Below are positions 46,341 through 59,671 of a DNA stretch of 64,000 nt, in pieces. The position numbers and the translations under genes were made by a program. The notes beneath the pieces were generated by a model. That model did not search any database. It was not told the origin of the DNA and saw only the letters and a program-made list of their open reading frames with translations. This DNA comes from Hymenobacter rigui (GTDB taxonomy: Bacteria; Bacteroidota; Bacteroidia; Cytophagales; Hymenobacteraceae). Every line of letters begins with the position of its first letter. The first letter of the stretch is position 1. Location: positions 124,001 through 188,000 of the forward strand of contig NZ_RWIT01000002.1 in the NCBI RefSeq assembly GCF_003944715.1, read 5' to 3'.

Positions 46341-46691
46341 ATGCTCACCCCCGCCGCCCAGTTCCTGACCTACGCCGAGGCGGTGGCGCTGTACAACCAG
46401 CTCAAAGATGCCGATGTGGATGCGCTGGTGAAAACCTGCGGCCCGCCCTCCTTTCCCTTCGGCGACGGGCTGTTTTACCAGCTGCTGATTGAGGAAGCCG
46501 ACGTGCCGCAGGCCCGGGCGCTGGTGGAAGCCTTTGAGCACCAGCGCGCCACGCCGCCGGTGCTGCGCTGCCCCCGCTGCCGGGCCGAGGGCGCCGCGCC
46601 GCTGCCCCGGCCAGCGTGGTGGCAGCGGCTGTACTACGCGGGCACGGTGCTGCACAAATGCCCGCAGTGCGGCGCGGAATTTCCGGTCTGA
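46341..46691 (+). CDS. Small protein with C-terminal zinc ribbon
   Basis: A 116-residue protein. The N-part looks like a helical DUF2007-type signal domain (YAEAVALYNQLKDADVDALV), and the C-part is a zinc ribbon with CPRC at about 83-86 and CPQC at about 109-112. It has no membrane segment. Such proteins are often small regulators. The SWIM gene begins about 58 bases downstream on the same strand, so it may be the first gene of the cassette, though this is not certain. Confidence 0.72.
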   Translation: MLTPAAQFLTYAEAVALYNQLKDADVDALVKTCGPPSFPFGDGLFYQLLIEEADVPQARALVEAFEHQRATPPVLRCPRCRAEGAAPLPRPAWWQRLYYAGTVLHKCPQCGAEFPV

Positions 46692-46749: not shown

Positions 46750-48195
46750 TTGACCTGGACCGAAGAACAGGCCCGCGCCCTTATTCCCGATGCCGGCACC
46801 CTGAAACGGGGCCAGGAGCTGGCCGCCCCCGCCCGGTGGCAGAACCTGGGCCGCACCGACACCGCCGCCTGGGGCGAGTGCAAAGGCAGCGGCAGCAAAC
46901 CCTACCAAACCGGCCTCGACCTCACCGCTCCCGCCTTCAAGTGCAGCTGCCCCAGCCGCCTATTCCCCTGCAAGCACGGGGCGGGCCTGCTGCTGCTGCT
47001 GGCCCGTCAGCCCCAACTGCTGAACCCCGCCGAGCCCCCCGCCTGGCTGCAGGAATGGCTGGAAAAGCGCCAGCAGACCCAGGAGAAAAAAGCCCCCAAA
47101 ACCGCCGCTACGGCCGGGACGGAAGGCGGCAATTCCCCCGAAACAGCGGCTGGCTCGCCTGCTGCTGAGGAGCAGGCAGCGGGGAGCGAGGCCGCCCGCC
47201 AGAAGCGCGAAACCCAGCGCCACGCCCGCATGCAGCGCGGGGCCCAGGAGTTGGAAACCTGGCTGCTGGACGTGGTGCGCACCGGCCTGGCTGCCCTCGA
47301 CCAGCAGCCCCGCGCCTACTGGGAAAGCCAGGCCGCCCGCCTCGTGGACAACCAACTGCCGGGGCTGGCGGCGGCCGTGCGCGAGCTGCCCGACCTGCGC
47401 CACCAGGGCCCCGACTGGCCCGCCCGCCTGCTGGCCCGCCTCGGCGAGCTGTATCTGCTGGTGCGCACGTTCCAGCGCCTGCCCGAGCTAGCCGACGAAA
47501 CCCGCGCCGATGTGCTGCAGCTGTTGGGCGTGAGCCTGAAGAAGGAAGACCTGCTGGCCACCCAGCCCGCCGTGGCCGACGAGTGGCAGGTACTCAGCCA
47601 GACTACCACCGAGGAAGACCGCCTGACCGTGCGCCGCTCCTGGCTGCAGGGCCAGCGCACCGGCCGCTTCGCGCTGGTGGTGGAATTTTCCTTCGGCGGA
47701 CAGGCCTTCGCCACGCCGTTGCTGCCCGCGGGCCGGTACGCGGGCGAGCTGACGTTTTATCCCGGTCGGGTGCCGCTGCGGGCCGTGCCCGGGCCGCTCA
47801 CTTTCCAGGGTCTGACATCGGCTACGGCCGCTCCCACTGGCGGCCAGGGCCCCACCCGGCTCCTGAACGACTACGCCGACGCCCTGGCCCGTCTGCCCTG
47901 GCTGCGCGAGTGGCCCGCGTTGCTGCGCGGCGGCATTCCTGCCCGCACCGCCACGGGCGGCTGGCAGCTTCAGTTTCCGGCGGCTGATGACGGAATGGAA
48001 GCCGGAGAAGCCAACACCGGCCCCGCCGCGGCGGCCGATTCTGTGGCCCTGCCCCTGCTCTGCGACGAGCTGGCGGGCTGGGAGCTGCGCGCCCTCAGCG
48101 GCGGCCAGCCCCTCACAGTATTCGGGGAATGGACCGGCCGGGGCCTGCGCCCGCTCGGCAGCTGGCCGGTCGCCCTTCACCCGCTCACTGCCTGA
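46750..48195 (+). CDS. SWIM zinc-finger protein, first gene of the SWIM/MoxR/VWA cassette
   Basis: A 481-residue protein that begins at a TTG (MTWTEEQARALIPDAG). The SWIM finger is CxCx6CxH: C65, C67, C74, H76 (FKCSCPSRLFPCKHGAGLLL). A charged linker (about 95-165) leads to a large helical domain (about 170-481). SWIM domains bind nucleic acid or protein. DUF5691, MoxR, DUF5682 and VWA genes follow on the same strand; I recall this set as a recurring but uncharacterised bacterial neighbourhood. Only 3 bases separate it from the next gene. Confidence 0.85.
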   Translation: MTWTEEQARALIPDAGTLKRGQELAAPARWQNLGRTDTAAWGECKGSGSKPYQTGLDLTAPAFKCSCPSRLFPCKHGAGLLLLLARQPQLLNPAEPPAWLQEWLEKRQQTQEKKAPKTAATAGTEGGNSPETAAGSPAAEEQAAGSEAARQKRETQRHARMQRGAQELETWLLDVVRTGLAALDQQPRAYWESQAARLVDNQLPGLAAAVRELPDLRHQGPDWPARLLARLGELYLLVRTFQRLPELADETRADVLQLLGVSLKKEDLLATQPAVADEWQVLSQTTTEEDRLTVRRSWLQGQRTGRFALVVEFSFGGQAFATPLLPAGRYAGELTFYPGRVPLRAVPGPLTFQGLTSATAAPTGGQGPTRLLNDYADALARLPWLREWPALLRGGIPARTATGGWQLQFPAADDGMEAGEANTGPAAAADSVALPLLCDELAGWELRALSGGQPLTVFGEWTGRGLRPLGSWPVALHPLTA

Positions 48196-48198
48196 CTT

Positions 48199-49977
48199 AT
48201 GCCCGACGCCCTGCCCCCTTCCGCCCCCCACCTGCGCCCCGCCGCCGACTGGCAGCAGCTCCAGCGCGTGGCCCTGCTGGGCACCCGCCAAAGCGCCGAG
48301 GCCCTGCCCACCGTGCCCGGCTTCGCGCTGCCTGCCGACTCTGCCGACCACCGCGAGCAGCAGGTGCTGCTGCTGGCCGGGATACTGAGCACCGTGCGCA
48401 AAGCCGGCTTCCGACCACCGCTGGCCCGGGCCGATGCGCCGGAAACCTCCCGGCCCGCCCCGGCAACGGCATCCCCTGAAGCTCCCACGGCGGCATCCCC
48501 TGAAGCCCCAACAGTGACGGCCTCCGAATCCCTGCCGGCCCCTCCTGATTCCGGCGCGGCCCACCGGCCGGCCGCTGCGGCAGTAGCCGGGCCCGAAACG
48601 GCTGCGCCGCTGGGGCCGCAGGGCGCGCAGCTGCTGCAGCTGATGCTGGAAGGCACCGAGGCCGGCTCGCTCTATGGCTTTCTGGAGGATATGCACCGGC
48701 ACCAGCGGCGGGTACCGCCCCGGCTGCTGGTGGGCCTGCTGGAAGCTACCCGCACCCGCCGGGAGCTGCACGGCCCCGCTTCCCAGGTGCTGGGCCGGCG
48801 GGGCGAGTGGCTGGCCGCCCAGAACCCGGCCTGGCAGCCCGTGCTGCTGGCCGGCGCTTCGGCCCCTGACCCGGCCACCTGGGAAACTGGCACCCTGGCC
48901 GAGCGCCGCACCTACCTCTACCTGCTCCGCGAAACCGACCCCACCGAGGCCCGGACGCTGCTGGCCGCTACCCTGCCCCAGGAGCCCGCCCGCACCCAGG
49001 CCGAGCTGCTCCAGACCCTCGCCCACCGCCCCAACCCCGCCGACGCGCCCCTGCTGGAGCAGTACCTGACGGCCAAAAGCAAGGAGGTGCGGCAGGCCGT
49101 TCGGCCGCTGCTGGCCCGCCTGCCCGATAGTCCGCTGCTGGCGCGGCTGTGGCAGCGGGCCGAGCCCCTGGTGCGCCTCAAAACCGGCCTGCTCAGCAAA
49201 AAGCTGCTTGTGGAGCTGCCCCCGGTCGACTGGGACAAAACCTGGCTCCCCGACGGTATCGAGCAGAAGGACAGCCGGTTTCAGGGCGAGCGGGCCGCGC
49301 TATTGGGGCAGGTGCTAGCCCTGCTGCCGCCGGCCCGCTGGACGGCCCACTGGCAGCTGCCGCCCCGCAAGCTGCTGGAGCTGGCCGCCGCCACCGAGTG
49401 GGCCGGGCTGCTGCTCACGGCTTGGGCCGAAGCCGCTGTGCTCCACCAGGACGCCGACTGGGCCGGGACCCTGCTTGCCTGGTTCTACGAGAAGCCCCGC
49501 CCCCTGCCCGCCACCCTGCCCACCGGCGGCCTGGTAAGCCAGCTCACGCCGGAGCAGGCCGCCGACCTACTGCTGCCCCTCATCAACGCCACGCCCCATT
49601 TCAGCGCCGAGGTGCGCTGGCTGCCGTTGCTGCAGCTGACCCCCGGCCCCTGGCCCGAGCGCCTCACCCGCCGGGTGGTGGAGGTGCTGCGCGACACCCT
49701 CAGCAAGCCCGTGGAACTGTACCGCATCCAGTATGCGGCCGGGCAGCTGCTCGAGCACATGGCCCGCGCGGTGCCCGCCGCCCAGTACCGCCTCTGCGCC
49801 GAGCCCCTGCAGCCTCTGCTCCAGGACGTGCCCTACCTGCACAACAGCCTCGCCCGCCTGCTCAACACCCTGCACTTCCGCCAGCAGCTCCAGGAAGTAC
49901 TACTCGAACCACCCGATTCAACGGCTACATCAGAACGGAGCTCCCCTCCTTGGAAAGGAGGGGTTGGGGGTGGTTGA
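48199..49977 (+). CDS. DUF5691-like helical-repeat protein
   Basis: A 592-residue, Leu/Ala-rich, probably all-helical protein that resembles the DUF5691 family, with VALLGTRQSAEALPTVPGFA near the start. HEAT-like repeats appear in the middle (KSKEVRQAVRPLLARLPDSP, about residue 290), and a Pro/Ala linker lies at about 85-130. It is likely a scaffold for the SWIM and MoxR partners. The last ~13 codons (about SSPPWKGGVGGG) are encoded by the arm of an intergenic inverted repeat that also supplies the stop, so the natural C-terminus has been replaced or extended. Confidence 0.75.
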   Translation: MPDALPPSAPHLRPAADWQQLQRVALLGTRQSAEALPTVPGFALPADSADHREQQVLLLAGILSTVRKAGFRPPLARADAPETSRPAPATASPEAPTAASPEAPTVTASESLPAPPDSGAAHRPAAAAVAGPETAAPLGPQGAQLLQLMLEGTEAGSLYGFLEDMHRHQRRVPPRLLVGLLEATRTRRELHGPASQVLGRRGEWLAAQNPAWQPVLLAGASAPDPATWETGTLAERRTYLYLLRETDPTEARTLLAATLPQEPARTQAELLQTLAHRPNPADAPLLEQYLTAKSKEVRQAVRPLLARLPDSPLLARLWQRAEPLVRLKTGLLSKKLLVELPPVDWDKTWLPDGIEQKDSRFQGERAALLGQVLALLPPARWTAHWQLPPRKLLELAAATEWAGLLLTAWAEAAVLHQDADWAGTLLAWFYEKPRPLPATLPTGGLVSQLTPEQAADLLLPLINATPHFSAEVRWLPLLQLTPGPWPERLTRRVVEVLRDTLSKPVELYRIQYAAGQLLEHMARAVPAAQYRLCAEPLQPLLQDVPYLHNSLARLLNTLHFRQQLQEVLLEPPDSTATSERSSPPWKGGVGGG

Positions 49978-50174
49978 CAATCGTTGAACAGCCCCACCCA
50001 CAAAAACCCCACCCGTCATGCTGAGCGGAGCCGAAGCATCTCTACTGCTTCGTTGCAATGGTAATCAGGCGAAGCGGGAGAGATGCTTCGGCAAGCTCAG
50101 CATGACGTTCACTTACATCGTTCTACCAACATCAACCACCCCTAACCCCTCCTTTCTAAGGAGGGGAACTAGCT
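49939..50174. repeat. Composite repeat: family B nested in family C
   Basis: The outer arms at 49939-49977 and 50132-50174 are AGCTCCCCTCC-type (family C), each with its own internal hairpin. Within them lies a family B repeat (CGTCATGCTGAG...GAAGCATCTCT) at 50014-50042 and 50079-50107. The left outer arm contains the end of the DUF5691 gene. It fills the gap to the MoxR gene. Confidence 0.88.
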
Positions 50175-50198
50175 CTAGCCTTTAACTTCTCCTCCAAT

Positions 50199-51299
50199 AT
50201 GCCTACCACGCCCGAAACCGCCGTCCTGCGCCCGCACGCCGAGGATGTGTACGCCGAAGAGTTGGCCGCTTTGCGCGCCGCCGACCACGACCGGCCTAAG
50301 CCCCCGAACTGGCACCTCTCGCCCTGGGCCACTGTCACCTACCTGCTGGGCGGCAAGCTGGATAACGGCTTTAAAATCGAGCCCAAGTACATCGGGCAGC
50401 GGCGGCTGATGGAAATTGCGGTGGCCACCCTGGCTACCGACCGCGCCCTGCTGCTGCTGGGCGTGCCGGGCACGGCCAAAAGCTGGGTATCGGAGCACCT
50501 GACGGCGGCCATCAGCGGCCGGTCGGATTTGCTGGTGCAGGGCACGGCGGGCACCTCGGAAGACGCCATTCGCTACTCCTGGAACTACGCCCGCCTCATT
50601 GCCGAAGGGCCTTCCTTGGGCGCGCTGGTGCCCTCGCCCCTGTTCAAGGGCATGCAGGAAGGCCGGCTGGTGCGCCTCGAGGAGCTCACCCGCATCCCCT
50701 CCGACGTGCAGGACACGCTCATCACCATGCTCTCCGAAAAAGTGCTGCCCATCCCGGAGCTTTCCACCGAGGTGCAGGCCGTGAGCGGCTTCAACATCAT
50801 TGCCACCGCCAACGACCGGGACAAGGGCGTGAACGAGCTCAGCAGCGCACTGCGCCGCCGCTTCAACACAGTGGTGCTGCCCCTGCCGACCTCCGCGGAT
50901 GAGGAAGTGCGCATCGTGCAGACGCGGGTGGAAAAGCAGGGCAAGGCGCTGCAGCTGCCCGTGGAGGCCCCGGCCCTGGAGCAGATCAGCCGCCTCGTGA
51001 CCATCTTCCGGGAGCTGCGCTCGGGCGTGACGGAGAACGGCAAAACCAAGCTCAAAAGTCCCAGCGGCACGCTCAGCACCGGCGAGGCCATTTCGGTGAT
51101 GAACAGCGGCCTGGCCCTGGCCGCCTACTTCGGCGACGGCAGCCTGCGCGCACACGACCTGGCCGCCGGCCTCACCGGCGCCGTGCTCAAAGACCCCGTG
51201 CAAGACCGCACCGTCTGGCTCGAATACCTCGAAACCGTGGTAAAAGAGCGCGACGGCTGGAAAGACCTCTACCGCGCCTGCCGGGAGGTGGTGGAATAA
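50199..51299 (+). CDS. MoxR-family AAA+ ATPase
   Basis: A 366-residue ATPase of the MoxR class, usually a chaperone that activates or remodels a VWA partner. Walker A is GVPGTAKS (88-95); the Walker B region is GRLVRLEELTRIP, with Glu-Glu rather than the usual Asp-Glu. Sensor 1 is NIIATANDRDKG and the arginine finger lies in LRRRFNTVVLPLP. It shares the cassette with the VWA gene about 5 kb downstream. Its stop overlaps the start of the next small gene by 1 base. Confidence 0.9.
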   Translation: MPTTPETAVLRPHAEDVYAEELAALRAADHDRPKPPNWHLSPWATVTYLLGGKLDNGFKIEPKYIGQRRLMEIAVATLATDRALLLLGVPGTAKSWVSEHLTAAISGRSDLLVQGTAGTSEDAIRYSWNYARLIAEGPSLGALVPSPLFKGMQEGRLVRLEELTRIPSDVQDTLITMLSEKVLPIPELSTEVQAVSGFNIIATANDRDKGVNELSSALRRRFNTVVLPLPTSADEEVRIVQTRVEKQGKALQLPVEAPALEQISRLVTIFRELRSGVTENGKTKLKSPSGTLSTGEAISVMNSGLALAAYFGDGSLRAHDLAAGLTGAVLKDPVQDRTVWLEYLETVVKERDGWKDLYRACREVVE

Positions 51300-51631
51300 T
51301 GGATAACGTCAGCATCATCGCCCGTTTACGTGACCTGGGGTCATTGCCAGACGATACTACTCCTGCCATTGACGACTTTCCCTTGAAGAAATTTGACGAG
51401 CTCGTGCAGCAACTTTCCGAGCCTTTGGAACCAGATCATTCTCTGGCTTTAATCAATCTAGGGCCACCGCACGGCACATCAGCATGCGGAATAGAATGGT
51501 CACTAATTCATGCTGCAGAGGCTGTTTCCGCTAAAGCGCTGCGTGATATTTTGTTTGATGCAGACGACACGGAGGTCAAAAGAATTATTGCCATGAGATT
51601 AGCAAATCATTTCGAAAACAACCTAGAATAA
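51299..51631 (+). CDS. Hypothetical small acidic protein (cargo gene 1)
   Basis: A 110-residue acidic protein with no recognised family (IARLRDLGSLPDDTTPAIDD, IHAAEAVSAKALRDILFDAD). It overlaps the MoxR stop by one base and is AT-richer than the cassette genes. It has no signal or membrane segment. Position and size resemble the immunity-type genes that accumulate in such loci, but no motif proves it. Confidence 0.65.
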   Translation: MDNVSIIARLRDLGSLPDDTTPAIDDFPLKKFDELVQQLSEPLEPDHSLALINLGPPHGTSACGIEWSLIHAAEAVSAKALRDILFDADDTEVKRIIAMRLANHFENNLE

Positions 51632-51643
51632 TGGATTTGAGAT

Positions 51644-52150
51644 ATGGACACTAACGGGCCTGAAGCTTCTGAAACATCTCCTGAATCCTACTGGACAGCG
51701 GTTGGCAACATCATTCGGGAACGGCCCTACGGACCGGCCGGAGCTGAAATTCGCTACGGCACGAAGCATTTTGCACCGGCCGCCAAAGTATACATCATCG
51801 ACTGGTACCCGGGAACGTGTCAAAGCATCGTGGTAGTAGGCCAACACCGCAAATCTAAGCGCTTGATAACGCTGTCACTTGACGTCCGATTGGTGGAAAA
51901 CCTGCGTGCGAAAGTCTGCTACAACCCTACTGCCATTGCCAAGTTCAAAGAGCACTATTCCCCGAAGTCACACTATAATGCTGGCCCGATTTCCTCCCTC
52001 ACTAAGGAACTAGCGGAAACGATGTGCCGGGCAATTCCACACTGGCAACTGAACTACAAGACCAAGCTCAGAGAAAGCGCATTACCTATCCAAGAAGAAA
52101 CTACTGCCACCATTCCATTCTTGGTTTGGCTTCGGAAGCTTTTCCAATAA
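51644..52150 (+). CDS. Conserved-looking hypothetical protein (cargo gene 2)
   Basis: A 168-residue protein. The strongest segments are AVGNIIRERPYGPAGAEIRY, GTKHFAPAAKVYIIDWYPG and SIVVVGQHRKSKRLITLSL, which look like an enzymatic or binding fold. I believe I have seen this pattern in other Bacteroidota hypothetical proteins, but I cannot name a family. It is AT-richer than the cassette core and lies between MoxR and DUF5682. Confidence 0.68.
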   Translation: MDTNGPEASETSPESYWTAVGNIIRERPYGPAGAEIRYGTKHFAPAAKVYIIDWYPGTCQSIVVVGQHRKSKRLITLSLDVRLVENLRAKVCYNPTAIAKFKEHYSPKSHYNAGPISSLTKELAETMCRAIPHWQLNYKTKLRESALPIQEETTATIPFLVWLRKLFQ

Positions 52151-52244
52151 TTCTTGAGACTTAAGTTCTCGCCAAGCCGATCCATAGCCTCCCAACGCGT
52201 AGCATAGCAACCGACTATTGGATAGCTATAACCTCCCTTCGATA

Positions 52245-52694
52245 ATGTCGCAATCCAACCCAAACTATGCTGACCTGGGCTTCTCAAGCCCCATGAGCCC
52301 CACCTTACGAAGCTTAGTGGAGCAGCAGCTGCTTGTCGATTTGGCTCACTATGGAGTCGTTCGGGAGGGGCTGAAATTTGATTGGTCAGAAAGCTGCATT
52401 GAAGGCCATCTAGAGGAATATTTGGGCAGCAGCCTAGAAAATTATTCAGGTATAGCGGTATATGATGCTGACGACAAATGTGTAGCCGATGGGTGGATGG
52501 AATTTATTTTGGCGGGTGAGTTCTTTCTGGTTTTCTGGGACTATCTGACTATTCGGAAAAACGGCCGGCAGGTCTTTGACAAAAGCCAGCCTGGAATTCC
52601 GGACCATGTATGGCAACAGATTCCGGAGGATATCCGCACCAGCTACCGAAATGACCGAATGAAACGGCCGCCCTTTAATCAGCCTGCTCTCTAA
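52245..52694 (+). CDS. Hypothetical acidic protein (cargo gene 3)
   Basis: A 149-residue acidic protein. Segments include LGSSLENYSGIAVYDADDKC, DGWMEFILAGEFFLVFWDYL and GIPDHVWQQIPEDIRTSYRN. The ATG at 52245 is preferred to a TTG 27 bases upstream. It is AT-richer than its flanks and ends 5 bases before the DUF5682 gene, so it is co-transcribed with it. The sequence style suggests an immunity-like small protein, without proof. Confidence 0.68.
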   Translation: MSQSNPNYADLGFSSPMSPTLRSLVEQQLLVDLAHYGVVREGLKFDWSESCIEGHLEEYLGSSLENYSGIAVYDADDKCVADGWMEFILAGEFFLVFWDYLTIRKNGRQVFDKSQPGIPDHVWQQIPEDIRTSYRNDRMKRPPFNQPAL

Positions 52695-52699
52695 CCCCA

Positions 52700-55045
52700 A
52701 TGCCCACCGACCTCCGCCTTTTCGGTATCCGCCACCACGGGCCCGGCAGCGCCGCCAGCCTCGTGCACGCCCTCGATGCCTACCAGCCCGACATTGTGCT
52801 GCTGGAGTGCCCCGCCGATGCCGAAGCGGCGCTGGCGGCGGCCACCCACCCCGAGATGGTGCCGCCGGTGGCCCTGCTCGTGTACAACCCCAAACAGCAC
52901 CAGCAGGCCTCGTTTCTGCCCTTCGCCGAGTTTTCGCCCGAGTGGCAGGCCCTCCACTGGTGCCACCGCCACGGCGCCCACCTGCGCTGCTTCGACCTGC
53001 CCATGGCCCTGCGCTTCGGAATGCCGGATGAAGTACCTGACGTTGCGTCTCTCCCCTTGGCCCCGTCGGAACCAGTTCTGGAAGCTGACTTCAACTCAAC
53101 CACGGAAGCGCCAGATCAGGGTGTAGAGCTGGAATTAGCAGGTAGTTCCCCCTCTCTACCGGAGAGGGGGTTAGGGGGTGAGGCACCGGATCAGGACTCA
53201 GCGGCTGAAGCCTCCCGGGACCCCATCTCCTACCTGGCCGAGCTCGACGGATACGCCGACGGGGAGCGGTGGTGGGAGCTGCGCCTGGAACACGCCCCCG
53301 GCCACGCCGACACCTTTGCCGTGGTGCGGGACCTGATGACGGCCCTGCGCGAGGAGCTGAACCTGCCCGAAACCGAGGAAACCCTGCTGCGTGAGGCCTT
53401 CATGCGCGAAACCCTGCGCGCCACCCTGCGCCAGGGCTACCAGCGCGTGGCGGTGGTGTGCGGGGCCTGGCACGCCCCGGTGCTGCGGCCCGAGCTGCTC
53501 AAGAAAGAAGACAAAGCCCGTCTCAAGGGCCTGAAAAAAGTAGCCACCGCCGCCACCTGGATTCCGTGGACGTTTGAGCGCCTGTCTACCGCCTCGGGCT
53601 ACGGGGCGGGCGTGGGGTCGCCGGCCTGGTACGAGCTGCTGTTTACTACGCCCCGCGCCGAGGTGGTCACGCACTGGATGGTGCGCGCCGCTCGCCTGCT
53701 CCGCTCCCGCGACCTGGACGCCTCCGCCGCCCACGCCATTGAGGGCGTGCGCCTGGCCCACACCCTGGCCGCCGTGCGCGGCCGCGAGCTGCCGGGCATC
53801 GAGGAGCTGCAGGAAGCCGCCGTGGCCATCCTGGGCGGGGGCTATGCCGAGGCTCTGGATATGGTGCAGCGCGAGCTGGTGGTGGGCGAGCGGCTGGGCG
53901 CGGTGCCGCCCGAGCAGCCCGCCACGCCGTTGCAGCAGGACGTGCAGCTGCAGCAAAAAGCCACCCGCCTCAAGCCCGAAGCCACCGCCCGCACCCTCGA
54001 CCTGGATTTGCGCAAGGAGCTGGATTTGAGTCGCAGCCACCTGCTGCACCGCCTGCGCCTGCTCGATATCCGCTGGGGCCAGCCGCGCCGGGCCCACGGC
54101 AAAGCCGGCACCTTCCACGAGCTGTGGGAGCTGCAGTGGCAGCCCGAGTACGCCCTGCAGGTGCTCGACGCGGGCCGCTGGGGCAACACCGTGCTGGCCG
54201 CCGCCGCCGCCCGGGCCGCCAGCCGCGCCGCCGAGGCCCCCGATCTGGAAGCCGTGAGCCAGCTGCTGGAAGAAGCCCTGCAGGCCGACCTCGGCCCGGC
54301 CATCGGGGCGCTGGTGGCCCGGCTCGAAACCCTCTCTGCCGGCACCCGCGACGTGACGCACCTGCTGGCGGCCCTGCCCCCGCTGGTGAACGTGCTACGC
54401 TACGGCAACGTGCGCCGCACCGAAACCGCCCAGGTAGCCACTGTGGTGCACCACCTGGTGCCGCGCCTGTGCATTGGCCTGCCGCCGGCCTGCACCGGCC
54501 TCGACTACGACGCAGCACGCCAGCTGCTGCCCCGCCTCGAAGGCAGCCACCAGGCCATCCGGCTGCTGCAGGACGAAGCCCAGGAAATCGACTGGTACGC
54601 GGCCCTGGCCGTGGTGCTGCGCAACCCGGCTTCGTCGGGGCTGCTGGCCGGGGCGGCGGGGCGGTTGCTATTTGATGCCCATCGCCTCAGCCCGGAGGAG
54701 GCCGCCACGGCCCTGGGCCTGGCCCTCTCGCCGGCCCAGCCCACCAGCTACGCCACGGCCTGGCTGGAAGGCTTCCTCAGCGGCAGCGCCCTGCTGCTGC
54801 TCCATCACCGTCCCCTTTTCGATCTACTCAACGACTGGCTGGGCACGCTCCCCGAAGACACCTTCCGCGAAATCGTGCCCCTGTTGCGCCGTGCCTTCGC
54901 CGATTTCAGCCTGCCCGAACGCCGCCAGCTGCTCGACCTCGCCCAGCAAGGCGCCCAGCCGGCCCTGGCCGCAGCCGAGGAAGACTTCGACCTGGAACGG
55001 GGCCTGCGGGTACTACCGGGCCTACGGGAGCTGATGGGCTATTGA
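52700..55045 (+). CDS. DUF5682-family protein (ChaN/TIKI-like N-domain)
   Basis: A 781-residue protein. The N-domain has LFGIRHHGPGSAASLVHAL (about 7-25) and VLLECPADAEAAL, and a second His motif VVCGAWHAPVL at about residue 252. This His/Glu layout recalls the ChaN/TIKI/erythromycin-esterase-like fold, which is inference. The rest (about 300-781) is a long helical region. A linker at about 130-175 contains an in-frame family C repeat arm (PSLPERGLGGEAPDQ). It is a core gene of the SWIM/MoxR/VWA cassette. Confidence 0.78.
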   Translation: MPTDLRLFGIRHHGPGSAASLVHALDAYQPDIVLLECPADAEAALAAATHPEMVPPVALLVYNPKQHQQASFLPFAEFSPEWQALHWCHRHGAHLRCFDLPMALRFGMPDEVPDVASLPLAPSEPVLEADFNSTTEAPDQGVELELAGSSPSLPERGLGGEAPDQDSAAEASRDPISYLAELDGYADGERWWELRLEHAPGHADTFAVVRDLMTALREELNLPETEETLLREAFMRETLRATLRQGYQRVAVVCGAWHAPVLRPELLKKEDKARLKGLKKVATAATWIPWTFERLSTASGYGAGVGSPAWYELLFTTPRAEVVTHWMVRAARLLRSRDLDASAAHAIEGVRLAHTLAAVRGRELPGIEELQEAAVAILGGGYAEALDMVQRELVVGERLGAVPPEQPATPLQQDVQLQQKATRLKPEATARTLDLDLRKELDLSRSHLLHRLRLLDIRWGQPRRAHGKAGTFHELWELQWQPEYALQVLDAGRWGNTVLAAAAARAASRAAEAPDLEAVSQLLEEALQADLGPAIGALVARLETLSAGTRDVTHLLAALPPLVNVLRYGNVRRTETAQVATVVHHLVPRLCIGLPPACTGLDYDAARQLLPRLEGSHQAIRLLQDEAQEIDWYAALAVVLRNPASSGLLAGAAGRLLFDAHRLSPEEAATALGLALSPAQPTSYATAWLEGFLSGSALLLLHHRPLFDLLNDWLGTLPEDTFREIVPLLRRAFADFSLPERRQLLDLAQQGAQPALAAAEEDFDLERGLRVLPGLRELMGY
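53140..53185. repeat. Intragenic family C repeat arm inside the DUF5682 gene
   Basis: A hairpin with 9-bp arms CCCCCTCTC (53148-53156) and GAGAGGGGG (53162-53170) is followed by TTAGGGGGTGAGG. It matches the layout of the family C arms at 49939 and 61907. It is read in frame and is flanked by two similar 16-base segments (GAAGCGCCAGATCAGG at 53105 and GAGGCACCGGATCAGG at 53181). Confidence 0.75.
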
Positions 55046-55060
55046 CGTATCATAGCACGA

Positions 55061-55160
55061 TGTAGAGACGCAATATTTTGCGTCTCGTCGTTGAACGACC
55101 GGCTTCGCGCAGATCAAACAGCATCAGCAACGACGAGACGCAAGATGTTGCGTCTCTACA
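55061..55160. repeat. Family A inverted repeat, inverted orientation
   Basis: Arms at 55061-55093 and 55128-55160 (core GTAGAGACGCAATATTTTGC) pair with two mismatches. The spacer signature reads in the opposite direction to the copy at 46232, so the element can insert in either orientation. Confidence 0.9.
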
Positions 55161-55195
55161 CCGTTCCAATTACCAGCCGTCGTACCTTGCCACCT

Positions 55196-55555
55196 ATGCC
55201 TACTACCTACCCTTTCCAGGTTGCTGATTTAGCCGACAAGGCCGAGCCCGGCCGCCAGGAGCGCATCCTGGTGAACCTCACCAACCTGGAGGACTATTAC
55301 AACGTGTTCGAGAAGTACGGCTTCAGCGGCAGCGGCGCCAGCTGGGCCGAGCACATCGAAACCATCCTGGAGGAGCACGCCCCCGCCCTACTCGACCACG
55401 TGGAGCTGGCCGGCCAGGGCGACATTTTCCTGGCCTTCACCGACGGCCCCGCCGCCACCGAGCAGTTTCTGGCCCTAATTCAACCCATTTTCGGCGACCT
55501 GGGCAGCCTCAACAAGTACCTCAGTCAGGCTGACCCCGGCGACTTTTTTGAGTAG
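55196..55555 (+). CDS. Imm51-like immunity-family protein
   Basis: A 119-residue acidic protein resembling the Imm51 immunity family: RILVNLTNLEDYYNVFEKYG, GASWAEHIETILEEHAPALL and a Gly/Asp-rich end. Imm51 proteins are found in polymorphic-toxin loci, where they protect against a cognate toxin. No toxin is adjacent here, so this would be an orphan immunity gene within the cassette. The frame is open to 55091 through the preceding repeat, but the ATG at 55196 is the natural start. Confidence 0.62.
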   Translation: MPTTYPFQVADLADKAEPGRQERILVNLTNLEDYYNVFEKYGFSGSGASWAEHIETILEEHAPALLDHVELAGQGDIFLAFTDGPAATEQFLALIQPIFGDLGSLNKYLSQADPGDFFE

Positions 55556-55566
55556 ACATTTTTCCT

Positions 55567-56043
55567 ATGCCAGCCACCCCTGCTATTGTCACCTTTTGGG
55601 GTGCTTTACTTGGTATTGCAGCCCTAACTGCCTGCACAACTCAATCAGAAAATCCGCAAAACCCTCTACTTCCAGACACTGAAGTGTCTGTTATGCCTGT
55701 CAGCAGTGCTACCCATGACACATTCTCAATTTCAACACCACACACGGTAAAAGTGTACCTAAACAGTCGTGCCTTGTACCGGCAGGCAGTGGCAAATGGA
55801 ATAACAGATTACCTGCAATTCTCTTGTAAGTCAGAAAGTAAAGGACTGAGTATTGTCCACTATAGACTCCAACAAGACACTGCCTACGTGACATTCGATA
55901 TAACTGATCCGACAGCATTTAAACAGCCTGTGGATGTAGCCCACTTGAAGTATTCCTTTGCACTGGACCTAAATCTCAGACGGCCCGGCATCGATTCAAC
56001 TTTTAACTCCCTAGATGTCTTCTACATCAGCAGTAAGCCATAA
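55567..56043 (+). CDS. Hypothetical lipoprotein
   Basis: A 158-residue exported lipoprotein: the signal FWGALLGIAALTAC ends in a lipobox Cys at about residue 23. The mature part has strands such as SISTPHTVKVYLNSRALYRQ and YSFALDLNLRRPGIDS, with no recognised family. It is strikingly AT-richer than the flanking DUF5682 and VWA genes, suggesting later insertion. Its stop is about 60 bases before the VWA gene. Confidence 0.68.
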   Translation: MPATPAIVTFWGALLGIAALTACTTQSENPQNPLLPDTEVSVMPVSSATHDTFSISTPHTVKVYLNSRALYRQAVANGITDYLQFSCKSESKGLSIVHYRLQQDTAYVTFDITDPTAFKQPVDVAHLKYSFALDLNLRRPGIDSTFNSLDVFYISSKP

Positions 56044-56106
56044 GCATAATCAGCAGTAAGCCAAATGCATATGGCTTACTAACATTTTCGAACCCAACAA
56101 CAATGT

Positions 56107-57219
56107 ATGCCCCCCTCCACCGACAACGCCACCCGCTGGAAGCTCGTGCTCGGCTCCGAGGCCGACGCGCAGAACCAGATTGCCTTCGATGCCGATTACA
56201 AAGGCATGGACGACGTGCTGACCTCGCTCTATGACCAGTCGGAGCGCAAGGCGGGGCTGGGCGGCTCCGCGCCCCGCGTGAGCCGCTGGCTAGGCGACAT
56301 CCGCACCTACTTCCCCACTGAGGTAGTGGCCGTGATGCAGCGCGACGCCATGGACCGCCTGGGGCTGCACCAGCTGCTGCTGGAGCCCGAGATTCTGCGC
56401 ACGGTGCAGGCCAATGTGCAGCTGGTGGGCATGCTCATGTCGCTGAGCCGGGTGATGCCCCAGAAGGTGAAGCACACCGCCCGCGAGGTGGTGGGCCGGG
56501 TGGTGAAGGAGCTGGAGCAGCAGCTCTCGAACCCTCTGCGGCAGGCCGTGCAGGGCGCCCTGAGCCGCGCCGTGCGCAACCCTCGCCCCCGCTACCGCGA
56601 AATCGACTGGGCCGCCACCATTCGGGTCAACCTTAAGCACTACCAGCCGGCCCAGCGCACCATCGTGCCCGAGCGGCTGGTGGGCTTCGGGCGGCGCGGG
56701 CAGGCGCTCAAGGAAATTGTGCTGTGTGTGGACCAGAGCGGGTCTATGGCCTCCTCGGTGGTGTACGCGGGCGTGTTCGGGGCGGTGCTGGCCTCCATCA
56801 AGGCCGTGAAAACGCACATGGTGGTGTTTGATACCAGCGTGGTGAACCTGTCCGAGGATCTGCAGGACCCGGTGGACTTGCTGTTTGGGGTGCAGCTGGG
56901 CGGCGGCACCGATATCAACCTGGCCCTGGGCTATTGCCAGCAGCTCATTACCCGCCCCACCGATACCATTCTGTTGCTTATCAGCGACTTGCACGAGGGC
57001 GGCAATGAGCGGGAAATGCTCAAGAAAGCTGCTGCCCTGCGTGCTGCCGGCGTTACCGTCGTAGCCCTGCTGGCCCTCTCCGATGACGGCGCCCCCAGCT
57101 TCGACAGGCGCGTGGCCGAGCAGCTGGCCGCCCTCGATATTCCATCTTTTGCCTGCACGCCGGGCCAGTTCCCGGGCCTGATGGCGGCGGCTATTCAGGG
57201 CGGCAAGCTACAGGTGTAA
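56107..57219 (+). CDS. VWA-domain protein, last core gene of the SWIM/MoxR cassette
   Basis: A 370-residue CoxE-like protein. A helical N-part (about 1-195) precedes a von Willebrand factor A domain with a complete MIDAS: DQSGS at 209-213, Thr in LGGGTDINLALGYC and Asp in LLLISDLHEGGN. MIDAS sites bind a divalent metal and a partner acidic residue. VWA proteins are the usual clients of MoxR ATPases. The N-part (SRWLGDIRTYFPTEVVAVMQ) is conserved-looking but of unknown role. Confidence 0.85.
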   Translation: MPPSTDNATRWKLVLGSEADAQNQIAFDADYKGMDDVLTSLYDQSERKAGLGGSAPRVSRWLGDIRTYFPTEVVAVMQRDAMDRLGLHQLLLEPEILRTVQANVQLVGMLMSLSRVMPQKVKHTAREVVGRVVKELEQQLSNPLRQAVQGALSRAVRNPRPRYREIDWAATIRVNLKHYQPAQRTIVPERLVGFGRRGQALKEIVLCVDQSGSMASSVVYAGVFGAVLASIKAVKTHMVVFDTSVVNLSEDLQDPVDLLFGVQLGGGTDINLALGYCQQLITRPTDTILLLISDLHEGGNEREMLKKAAALRAAGVTVVALLALSDDGAPSFDRRVAEQLAALDIPSFACTPGQFPGLMAAAIQGGKLQV

Positions 57220-57377: not shown

Positions 57378-57465
57378 TGATACCGTTTCGCGCCGCTCAG
57401 AATATAACCACAGCTTGCTGGCGTCATGGGCCCGTATACGCCAACTGCGTTACTTTACTGCCCGC

Positions 57466-58143
57466 ATGAAAATACTCCTGGTGGAAGACGAGCCCAAGCT
57501 GGCGTCTTTCGTGAAAAAAGGCTTCGAGAATGAGGGCTACGAAATCGACGTAGCCTACGACGGGCGCGTGGGCCAGTCGCTGATTCAGCAGAACCGCTAC
57601 GATTTGGTGATTCTGGACGTGAACCTGCCCTACGTGAACGGCTTCGAGCTGTGCCGGCTGGTGCGCCGCCAGGATGCCCGCGTGCCCGTGCTGCTGCTCA
57701 CCGCCCTCGACAGCCTCGACGACAAAGTAACCGGCTTCGAGGCCGGCACCGACGACTACCTGGTGAAGCCCTTCGAGTTCAAGGAGCTGCTGCTGCGGGC
57801 CCGGGTGCTCACGCGCCGCCACACCGAGGCCGCCACTGTGAAACAAGCCCTGCGCATTGCCGACCTGGAGCTGAACCTCGACGCCAAAACCGTAACCCGC
57901 GCCGGCCAGCGCATCGACCTCACCACCAAGGAATACGCCCTGCTGGAGTACCTGCTGCTGAACCGGGGCAAAATCATTTCCCGGGTAGATATTGCCGAGA
58001 AGGTCTGGGAGCTGAATTTCGACACCAACACCAACGTCATCGACGTGTACGTGAGCTACCTGCGCAAAAAGCTGGATAAGGGCTACCCCGTTAAGCTCAT
58101 TCACACGGTGGTGGGCATGGGCTACGTACTGCGGGAAGGGTGA
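57466..58143 (+). CDS. OmpR/PhoB-family response regulator
   Basis: A 225-residue two-component response regulator. The receiver has VEDE at 7-10, the phosphorylated Asp51 in LVILDVNLPYVNGFELCRLV, and the conserved Lys in DDYLVKPFEF. A winged-helix DNA-binding domain follows (about 130-225: DLTTKEYALLEYLLLNRGKI, VIDVYVSYLRKKLDKG). The frame is open to 57415, but the ATG at 57466 is the natural start. The histidine kinase follows after a 160-base AT-rich repeat region. Shared operators at 59897 and 60621 are its likely targets. Confidence 0.94.
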   Translation: MKILLVEDEPKLASFVKKGFENEGYEIDVAYDGRVGQSLIQQNRYDLVILDVNLPYVNGFELCRLVRRQDARVPVLLLTALDSLDDKVTGFEAGTDDYLVKPFEFKELLLRARVLTRRHTEAATVKQALRIADLELNLDAKTVTRAGQRIDLTTKEYALLEYLLLNRGKIISRVDIAEKVWELNFDTNTNVIDVYVSYLRKKLDKGYPVKLIHTVVGMGYVLREG

Positions 58144-58144
58144 T

Positions 58145-58293
58145 TTTTAATTAAAAATTGAAAATTAAAAGGCATTGCCTTCGAATGGCTTTACGCCGTT
58201 CATCCACCTGCGTCTTGCACTGCCCGCTGTGGCTGTTGGCCCAAACGGAACCAAGGTTGCAACACCCACCGCACTAAACTTTTAATTTTTAAT
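58145..58293. repeat. AT-rich imperfect inverted repeat between regulator and kinase
   Basis: AATTAAAAATTGAAAATTAA-type sequence on the left and TTTTAATTTTTAATT on the right flank a GC-richer spacer. The AT-rich arms resemble those inside the E1 gene. The kinase start follows within 11 bases. Confidence 0.65.
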
Positions 58294-58303
58294 TCCCCCT
58301 CCT

Positions 58304-59671
58304 GTGCTCATCCGCAACAAGCTGGTTTTGCGCTTTACCCTGCTGGTGGTGGGTATTCAGCTGTGCTTTTCCGTCTTTATTTATTACTTCCAGGCCACTA
58401 CCCGGGAGCAGCGGTTTATCAACCGCCTGGCCGGCAAGGCCACCATGACGGCCCGGGTGCTGGTGCGCCACGACAGCCTCAACCACGACCTGCTGCGCAC
58501 CATGCACCGCCGCGACCTGTTCACGGTGCCGGGCGAGCAAATCAGTATCTACGGGCCCGGCCAGCACCTCATCTATACCAGCGCCGACGGCCTTAGCCAG
58601 AAGCTGAACTCCCGCTTTCTGGGCCGCATCCGGCCCGACCAGCCGGTGCAGTTTACCGATGGGGCGCTGGAATCAATTGGGCTGTATTATGAGCGCAACG
58701 GCCAGCCGTATTGGATTTTCGCCGCCGGTCACGACGATTTCGGGCACCGACAGCTGCAGAAGCTGGGGCTGATTCTGCTGGCGGCCAACCTGGGGGCGCT
58801 GGTGCTCATCATTCTGGCGGGCTGGTATTTCGCGGAGGAGTCGCTGAAGCCGATTTCGCGGGTTATCAGGCAGGTAGAGCGCATCACGGCCTCTCGCCTG
58901 AATGCCCGGGTGGACGAGGGCAACGGCACCGATGAAATTGCCCAGCTGGCCCGCACCTTCAACCACATGCTGGGCGGCGTGGAGCAGGCGTTTGAGTCGC
59001 AGAAAAGCTTTCTGAGCAACGCCAGCCACGAGCTGCGCACGCCCCTGGCCTCGGTGCTGGGCACGCTGGAAACCGCCTACGCCTACGATACCGATTTAGC
59101 GGAGGCCAAACGGAGCATCAGCTCCGCCACCGAGGAAATCAAAAAGCTCATTGAGCTGACCAACGGCCTGCTGAGTCTGGCCAAAGTAACCGACGCCTCC
59201 CCCCGCCGCGACTTGGTGCGGCTGGATGAGTGCCTGACCCAGGCCATCGACTCCTGCCAGGCCTGCTACCCCGGCCGCCTGGTGCAGTTGCAGTTTGGCC
59301 TGCTGCCGCCCGAGGTGGAGGATATGTTTATGGTGCGCGGCAACGCCCAGCTACTCACCACGGCCCTGCTCAACCTGCTGGATAATGCCTGCAAATACTC
59401 CCGGGAAACCGTGCAGGCCGAGTTGGGCTACCTCTCCCCGAAAACCGTGCAGGTGCGCGTAACCGACCAGGGCATCGGCATGGAGCCCCACGAACTGGCC
59501 CGCATCTACGAGCCGCTGTACCGCGCCGGTACCGATACTACTGCCCCCGGCTACGGCATCGGCCTGCCCATGACGCGCAAAATTGTGCTCCTGCACGGCG
59601 GCCACATCGAGCTGACCTCCACGCTGGGCCGCGGCACCACCGCCACCGTGCAGTTCCCGGCGGCGGAGTAG
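58304..59671 (+). CDS. Sensor histidine kinase
   Basis: A 455-residue membrane sensor kinase with a GTG start. Two transmembrane helices (about 10-29 and 153-176) bracket a periplasmic sensor (about 30-150), and a HAMP domain follows. The phosphorylated His is H242 in SFLSNASHELRTPLASVLGT. The ATPase domain shows LLNLLDNACKYS, VTDQGIGM and the GYGIGLPMTRKI loop. It pairs with the response regulator upstream. The downstream copper-binding and efflux genes suggest it senses a metal or envelope stress; this is inference. Confidence 0.94.
   Translation: MLIRNKLVLRFTLLVVGIQLCFSVFIYYFQATTREQRFINRLAGKATMTARVLVRHDSLNHDLLRTMHRRDLFTVPGEQISIYGPGQHLIYTSADGLSQKLNSRFLGRIRPDQPVQFTDGALESIGLYYERNGQPYWIFAAGHDDFGHRQLQKLGLILLAANLGALVLIILAGWYFAEESLKPISRVIRQVERITASRLNARVDEGNGTDEIAQLARTFNHMLGGVEQAFESQKSFLSNASHELRTPLASVLGTLETAYAYDTDLAEAKRSISSATEEIKKLIELTNGLLSLAKVTDASPRRDLVRLDECLTQAIDSCQACYPGRLVQLQFGLLPPEVEDMFMVRGNAQLLTTALLNLLDNACKYSRETVQAELGYLSPKTVQVRVTDQGIGMEPHELARIYEPLYRAGTDTTAPGYGIGLPMTRKIVLLHGGHIELTSTLGRGTTATVQFPAAE

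Follow-up and report, generated by a model that had tools for sequence, protein, structure and literature searches.

The window analysed here is a stretch of 64,000 nucleotides from the Hymenobacter rigui contig NZ_RWIT01000002.1, and between positions 46750 and 57219 its + strand carries an operon of five large open reading frames (ORFs) in the order SWIM, DUF5691, MoxR, DUF5682 and VWA. These genes, their order and their common strand had been listed in a first-pass annotation made from the sequence alone, and they were confirmed by the ORFs and by Pfam, the SWIM protein being recognised by its invariant zinc ligands. That list had missed five small ORFs that interrupt the core, three between MoxR and DUF5682 (slot 1) and two between DUF5682 and VWA (slot 2). 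The SWIM start is uncertain: the frame is open from a TTG at 46489, and comparison with relatives favours a start near 46750. The new finding, absent from the earlier description, is that the DNA behind MoxR belongs to a variable slot that begins at the MoxR stop codon or just behind it (Table 1).

Table 1. Features of the operon and its surroundings in the window (aa, amino acids; GC, guanine plus cytosine fraction; OB, oligonucleotide/oligosaccharide-binding; MIDAS, metal ion-dependent adhesion site)
Feature	Position	Strand	Remarks
SWIM zinc-finger protein	46750..48195	+	about 481 aa; predicted C-terminal tandem OB-like part
DUF5691 protein	48199..49977	+	592 aa; weak HEAT match
MoxR AAA+ ATPase, YehL kind	50199..51299	+	366 aa
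Slot 1, variable cargo, MoxR stop codon to DUF5682 start	51300..52699	+	
Slot 1 ORF	51299..51631	+	110 aa; GC 0.46; start overlaps MoxR stop (TAATG); cluster in 5/28 loci
Slot 1 ORF	51644..52150	+	168 aa; GC 0.51; no Pfam match; cluster in 5 loci
Slot 1 ORF	52218..52694	+	158 aa from TTG, or 133 aa from ATG 52293 (GC 0.49); no Pfam match; cluster in 3 loci
DUF5682 protein, YehM relative	52700..55045	+	781 aa
Slot 2, variable cargo, DUF5682 to VWA	55046..56106	+	
Slot 2 ORF, Imm51 domain (Pfam 1.9e-8)	55091..55555	+	154 aa from TTG, or 119 aa from ATG 55196; BLAST cluster in 12 loci (domain scan of the window member only)
Slot 2 ORF	55567..56043	+	158 aa; GC 0.455; no Pfam match; lipoprotein-like start by eye
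CoxE-type VWA protein, YehP relative	56107..57219	+	370 aa; MIDAS motif intact
Small ORF directly upstream of the SWIM gene	46341..46691	+	116 aa; zinc-ribbon-like by eye

The five genes are inherited as a collinear set

The distribution of the operon was followed in a family sample of 120 Hymenobacteraceae genomes, the window's own included, and in a wider sample drawn from a scan of a species-level genome collection. The scan gave at least 579 DUF5682 relatives, of which the best 80 loci, from Bacteroidota, Cyanobacteria, Chloroflexi, Planctomycetes, Verrucomicrobia, Acidobacteria and Proteobacteria, were examined; three of these are also family loci (L048 = G088, L051 = G068, L127 = G042). 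DUF5682, DUF5691, MoxR, VWA and SWIM were each found in the same 31 of the 120 family genomes, among them that of the window. The other 89 held none of the five at the thresholds used, except for a DUF5691 match below the Pfam cut-off in a 32nd genome. Gene order was constant in the 30 family loci lying on one contig; in G044 the VWA gene is on a separate contig. All five genes were in reach in 44 of the 80 wider loci, with the same order and strand in 44/44. The remaining 36 were not complete, many of them ending at contig ends, and three Hymenobacter loci had no VWA in reach. The combination, which the first-pass annotation had described as recurrent, is thus a non-random association.

Twelve genomes picked among the incomplete loci, in which DUF5682 lacks a linked partner in reach, were searched for MoxR and VWA alone, and all 12 carried one MoxR (67-74% identity) and one VWA (48-63%) elsewhere. 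In eight of them about 10 kb upstream of DUF5682 is free of MoxR; in the other four a contig end is close and the separation is less sure. Since MoxR and VWA are present where DUF5682 stands apart, linkage alone does not hold the set together, and the simplest reason is that a shared function does. In one family genome, fragments of a second VWA of the same type, with stops, were seen distant from the operon (G116:C8:18478-18935).

The core is related to yehLMPQ of Escherichia coli

In E. coli K-12, yehL, yehM, yehP and yehQ stand in one row. The window MoxR is 41% identical to YehL over 358 aligned columns and the window VWA 34% identical to YehP over 371, YehM and the window DUF5682 both match PF18934 (BLASTP 2e-18), and the order MoxR-DUF5682-VWA is common to both operons. 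They differ in that the SWIM protein YehQ stands last in E. coli and the E. coli operon has no gap for cargo; moreover, neither a scan of seven E. coli proteins nor the E. coli control genome yielded a DUF5691 match. A relationship of YehQ to the window SWIM protein found no support, as neither BLASTP, which gave no match, nor hhalign (E 0.089, probability 0.6%) detected any likeness beyond the SWIM motif, the only region that aligns.

At a coverage of at least 80%, the E. coli operon was present in 5162 of 5426 E. coli genomes (about 95%), and 5320 of the 5322 matching places were chromosomal. We found no paper that assigns a role to the yehLMPQ/DUF5682/DUF5691 system, and no experiment on it; yehQ is listed among tested butanol-tolerance candidates in PMC6442406.

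DUF4132-type proteins were seen downstream of the operon in three Chitinophagaceae-like loci (L080 13471-16413, L087 and L098), and E. coli yehI (L001 5280-8912), also of DUF4132 type, lies upstream of the yeh operon. They were rejected as part of the system, given that YehI matches occur in only 3 of the 80 wider loci, one of them confirmed by Pfam. As PMC8533742 describes a DUF4132 gene and a WGR gene that are strongly upregulated on DdrO depletion in D. radiodurans, these neighbours may hint at a link with DNA damage.

Motifs of the MoxR/VWA pair are conserved

CoxD/CoxE, CbbQ/CbbO, NorQ/NorD and RavA/ViaA each consist of a MoxR AAA+ protein with a VWA partner. The window operon holds such a pair, as proposed in the first-pass annotation, and differs from these systems in having no known client gene and three extra conserved partners. 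The MoxR protein matches AAA_5 (Pfam E 1.8e-34); the residues G, P, G, T and K of Walker A do not vary across 41 sequences, the window's and that of E. coli included, and the Glu-Glu of Walker B is found in 41/41. The VWA protein matches VWA_CoxE (E 1.7e-49) over residues 144-355 of its 370 aa, and its MIDAS residues D, S, S and D are conserved in 45/45 sequences, the T in 44/45. YehL is one of the seven MoxR subfamilies distinguished in PMC3893208, where MoxR proteins are described as chaperone-like and usually working with a VWA cofactor.

The DUF5691 protein was identified by a Pfam match of E 1.5e-116. The SWIM protein scored 15.5 bits against a cut-off of 19.6, and the Pfam SWIM model gave no match in the window's own genome despite the presence of the gene; the model is weak for the SWIM subfamily of this operon. 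The zinc ligands C, C, C and H (CxC, CxH) are nonetheless invariant in 39/39 aligned sequences, the window's included. SWIM and DUF5691 form one open frame of at least 1003 aa in 12 of the 31 family loci, and on a Hymenobacter plasmid a single annotated gene spans both. The predicted structure of the SWIM protein (mean pLDDT, the predicted local distance difference test score, 89.8) aligns over residues 1-112 with human ZSWIM8 (Z 8.6). Within residues 264-477, 168 positions align with the RPA70 tandem OB folds (Z 6.8), and this part also resembles baculovirus LEF-3 and HIN domains. The scores are modest; judged by their titles, most of the 50 structural matches listed are OB-fold proteins. Of the nucleic-acid or small-molecule sensing suggested earlier, nucleic-acid binding by the SWIM protein is thus plausible from its SWIM motif and from the weak tandem OB likeness of the predicted model.

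DUF5682 (PF18934, Pfam E 1e-241) is predicted to fold into an alpha/beta N-terminal part and a helical-repeat C-terminal part (pLDDT 85). Residues H12, E36, D99, R231, E232, W257 and H258 of the N-terminal part are invariant over 40 sequences. The ChaN/TIKI likeness that the first-pass annotation had seen in this protein, and likewise a relation to EreA, had no sequence support so far but may still hold. With hhalign, none of three proteins from the same genome, a TraB protein and two erythromycin esterases, outscored 360 control open frames against the N-terminal profile; a separate comparison with TraB gave nothing, and the best match of a PDB sequence search had E 0.32. The whole-model fold search returned helical-repeat matches only, filled by the C-terminal part, and says nothing on residues 1-310, the N-terminal domain not having been fold-searched alone.

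Variable, low-GC DNA begins at or close behind the MoxR stop codon

Slot variation was examined in 28 family loci, 23 from the window's genus and 5 from one sister genus. Genes were counted with a simple codon-based caller, and slot ORFs were also admitted under a laxer length rule. Slot 1 ranges from 651 to 6898 bp and slot 2 from 49 to 11887 bp (slot 2 of G044 reaches the contig end); in the three family loci of two other genera, slot 1 measures 12-143 bp and is cargo-free. The variable DNA starts at the MoxR stop codon or just beyond it, and in four loci the cargo start overlaps the stop. At the other border, the distance from the end of the last slot 1 ORF to the DUF5682 match is at most 40 bp in 17 of the 28 loci; in the other 11 the ORF stops 45-449 bp short of the match. 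The cargo mostly points the same way as the core (69 of the 79 slot 1 ORFs of at least 90 aa).

Slot 1 had a lower GC than MoxR plus DUF5682 in 28/28 loci (medians 0.51 vs 0.68), and so did slot 2 in all 23 loci where it exceeds 200 bp. As a control we used 981 genes from sixty 20-kb stretches, picked in 20 of the genomes irrespective of what they contain: 38 of these genes had a GC of 0.52 or less, compared with the first co-directional slot 1 ORF of at least 90 aa in 19 of the 26 loci that have one. No extra gene was called in the SWIM-to-MoxR stretch of the slot loci with this caller, which favours codon-typical genes. Cargo turns over between close relatives: no slot 1 cluster was shared in 42 of 52 pairs of loci with 80-90% DUF5682 identity, nor in 3/3 pairs at 90-95% (the pairs are not independent). 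Outside Hymenobacter, a slot 1 gap above 250 bp was present in 5 of 38 complete loci.

On a Deinococcus taeanensis plasmid (L202 7768-8004), slot 1 consists of a single ORF of 78 aa whose ends overlap the MoxR stop on one side and the DUF5682 start on the other. Slot 2 of eight family loci (G025, G035, G040, G044, G068, G078, G088 and G104) holds a large opposite-strand gene cluster, of which the one member scanned is a peptidase M1.

Slot 1 cargo includes nuclease-like genes among genes of other kinds

The cargo was scanned in 38 slot 1 ORFs hand-picked near MoxR in 26 of the 28 loci, out of the 79 of at least 90 aa. Most, not all, are low-GC; 10 had already been scanned beforehand, and none comes from G035, whose first slot 1 gene encodes a SUKH protein at normal GC, or from G053. 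Nuclease or RNase matches (E of 0.01 or less) were obtained for 8 of the 38: AHJR and RusA twice each, SduA_C, Mrr_cat (with M78), HSDR_N_2 and HEPN_Apea, the last two below the Pfam cut-off. Several of these, among them the Shedu relative with SduA_C, resemble nucleases of known antiviral systems. In the 25 of 33 families listed, the PADLOC models SduA, RmrA, capP and PDC-M37A were each matched by one slot cargo member. AHJR is rare: of its five matches in the 120 genomes, three fall within slot 1; two of the three are 88% identical to each other and the third is 56-58% identical to both. SduA_C had 11 matches in 10 genomes, one within slot 1.

Cluster representatives from slot 1 also gave SUKH, DUF6985 and 2-oxoglutarate (2OG) oxygenase matches, and those from slot 2 gave Imm51, a YhcG-type nuclease, peptidase M1, deformylase, a histidine kinase and metabolic genes. 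In Allochromatium, a C-5 cytosine DNA methylase is encoded in slot 1 together with a coupled ORF of 356 aa (GC 0.41 vs 0.58 for the locus), and in a Chitinophagaceae locus that was not counted as complete slot 1 holds a 23S rRNA IVP-type gene.

Among 38 low-GC control genes there were at least 3 restriction or nuclease families (Methylase_S, MethyltransfD12 and PDDEXK_3, among the 25 of 47 families listed), a minimum to which unnamed DUFs might add. Nucleases were therefore not significantly enriched in slot 1 over other low-GC genes, at 8/38 vs at least 3/38 (p = 0.19). What is special to slot 1 is the concentration of foreign-looking genes at one junction, rather than the share of nucleases.

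These observations bear on the possibility that the slots are neutral, insertion-tolerant gaps, which take in foreign genes of all kinds through recombination within the adjacent core genes and keep only inserts that spare transcription of the operon. Such a reading would fit the mixed cargo, its co-directional bias, the nuclease share that is not significantly raised and the low GC of both slots. It accounts less well for the concentration of low-GC genes in slot 1, for the lack of an extra called gene between SWIM and MoxR (as judged by a caller that favours codon-typical genes) and for the recurrence of the rare AHJR family in slot 1. We consider neutral gaps a real possibility, if on the doubtful side; the idea concerns the cargo alone and is compatible with any of the explanations of the core discussed below.

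Neighbouring genes

By tblastn, the small ORF upstream of the SWIM gene had counterparts at 12 of the 31 family loci and at 8 of the 80 wider loci, the latter all from Hymenobacter; it is no constant part of the operon. A response regulator and histidine kinase pair follows directly downstream of VWA in the window (57415-59671).

Links to conflict systems and mobile elements

The first-pass annotation had proposed a conflict or stress system. In a PADLOC scan, the ten window proteins gave no significant match, one VWA match to a CARF model having E 0.038. Linkage to phages or mobile elements found little support: no DUF5682 relative was found in viral contigs by one pattern scan with a single protein, and DUF5682 occurred in 23 of 72556 plasmid records, 4 of them mobilizable and some chromosome-sized (the SWIM protein in 16). 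A mobile defence cassette was accordingly lowered as a main reading, in view of the near-universality of the core in E. coli, the MoxR and VWA genes standing apart from DUF5682 and the empty viral-contig scan. The conflict proposal keeps the foreign, conflict-type cargo of slot 1 on its side and has against it a core that is near-universal in E. coli and has no significant defence-library match.

Several records deserve mention here. MT835988.1 (L205), an unverified 14 kb faecal record labelled Bacteriophage sp., holds a DUF5682 with 28% identity and a MoxR with 55% identity, and we suspect that it is a bacterial contig. On two Hymenobacter plasmids, NZ_CP049908 (L200 4204-13541) and NZ_CP037921 (L201), the operon has genes for a PDDEXK nuclease and a recombinase as neighbours. 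The H. radiodurans annotation splits DUF5682 into three pieces that overlap.

Among the closest known systems are the MoxR-vWA ternary conflict systems (VMAP, iSTAND, beta-propeller and related) described by Kaur et al. (2020, PMC7159879), which likewise combine a MoxR-vWA pair with a further conserved component and with components that vary between close relatives. MoxR and vWA share an operon in both cases, with DUF5682 lying between them in the window. The partners differ, being SWIM, DUF5691 and DUF5682 here, and the window VWA has no fused effector and no second domain over the cut-off, whereas in several of the published subsystems an effector is C-terminal to the vWA. SWIM, YehL, YehM, YehP, TIKI and DUF56 are absent from the main text of that paper (its supplements were not searched). 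Against the model of bpMoxR, from the sole MoxR-vWA subsystem compared separately, the window MoxR scored 26.0 bits with a cut-off of 27.

A dedicated conflict system would be one in which the core senses invading nucleic acid and licenses or restrains a slot 1 nuclease or other effector, in the fashion of PrrI and PrrC. PrrC would offer a precedent by analogy, its gene being nested in the type Ic restriction-modification operon of a multi-subunit nucleic-acid machine (PMC3710099); the difference is that PrrC is restrained by PrrI, and control of slot 1 cargo by the core is only hypothetical. The position of slot 1 at or near the MoxR stop, its overlaps, the co-directional ORFs, the turnover between close relatives, the SduA_C, Mrr_cat/M78, HSDR_N_2, HEPN_Apea, AHJR and RusA cargo, with three of the five AHJR matches, and the methylase with its coupled ORF in Allochromatium are all consistent with this view. 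It is opposed by the nuclease share, which does not exceed that of the controls significantly, by the 33 of 38 complete loci outside Hymenobacter with no slot 1 gap above 250 bp, by the near-universality of the core in E. coli, and by the SUKH, 2OG-oxygenase and unassigned genes of slot 1 and the peptidase, kinase and metabolic genes of slot 2. On balance, we think a dedicated conflict system unlikely.

A proposed host remodelling machine with a landing site for foreign genes

Our preferred, tentative explanation, to which we give somewhat less than even weight, is that the five proteins work together as a single unit, a YehL-kind MoxR/VWA remodelling machine with a role for the host, and that slot 1 is a landing and co-expression site. 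The core would be host machinery because it is widespread and near-universal in E. coli, because MoxR and VWA are retained even where DUF5682 stands apart, and because neither the defence library nor the one viral-contig scan gave significant matches. The MoxR ring, with the VWA protein as adaptor, would spend ATP on remodelling or loading an assembly made up of DUF5682 and SWIM-DUF5691. In this assembly the SWIM and OB-like protein would recognise nucleic acid, and DUF5682 may be the enzyme or scaffold that is acted upon. The complex would serve the host, most likely in nucleic-acid maintenance or stress. In Hymenobacter and its sister genus, slot 1 would repeatedly acquire foreign genes, including conflict genes such as nucleases and immunity-like genes. 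These probably function on their own and gain co-expression from their position.

Several points weigh against the host machine. Within the family the operon has a scattered distribution (31 of 120 genomes), and apparently broken copies exist: an internal stop in the MoxR of G031 (L043), DUF5691 spread over two frames in G025 (L028) and a split VWA in G004 (L017). These could be decay or sequencing errors, and if they are real the system is dispensable. Scattered occurrence and broken copies would fit an accessory system equally well. The OB-fold matches of the SWIM model are weak (Foldseek E 5e-3 or worse; Z < 8), and the cargo layout resembles the core-plus-variable-effector layout described for MoxR-vWA conflict systems in PMC7159879.

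The core might instead be a dedicated maturation chaperone, in which MoxR and VWA, as a pair like CoxD/CoxE, NorQ/NorD or CbbQ/CbbO, activate one enzyme or load a cofactor into it, with DUF5682 as client or partner and the cargo unrelated. The CoxE type of the VWA, the chaperone-like character given to MoxR proteins with a VWA cofactor in PMC3893208, the invariant His, Glu, Asp and Arg residues of DUF5682 and the retention of MoxR and VWA without linkage would all suit such a role. However, no common client gene stands beside the operon in five annotated plasmid loci and E. coli, a thin test since the other flanks are unannotated, and the SWIM/OB-like protein points to nucleic acid. A maturation chaperone is, in our judgement, decidedly unlikely.

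It is possible that the cargo genes are effectors of the core. In the fullest form of this idea, which we hold to be improbable, slot 1 would be an effector bay. A widespread nucleic-acid-sensing core would have become a modular immune platform in Hymenobacter-like bacteria and, here and there, in other phyla; it would hold or fire a nuclease or other effector that is exchanged as a cassette right behind MoxR.

Returning to the host machine, collinear co-inheritance makes a five-protein complex a concrete and testable hypothesis for a core that about 95% of E. coli genomes carry and that occurs in many phyla, yet has no assigned role that we could find in the literature. The slot behind MoxR is a place to seek unknown defence or immunity genes, and it allows tests of whether an AAA+ machine controls exchangeable nucleases. 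If the effector bay were true, the uncharacterised slot 1 genes, those of the window included, would be a source of new defence effectors.

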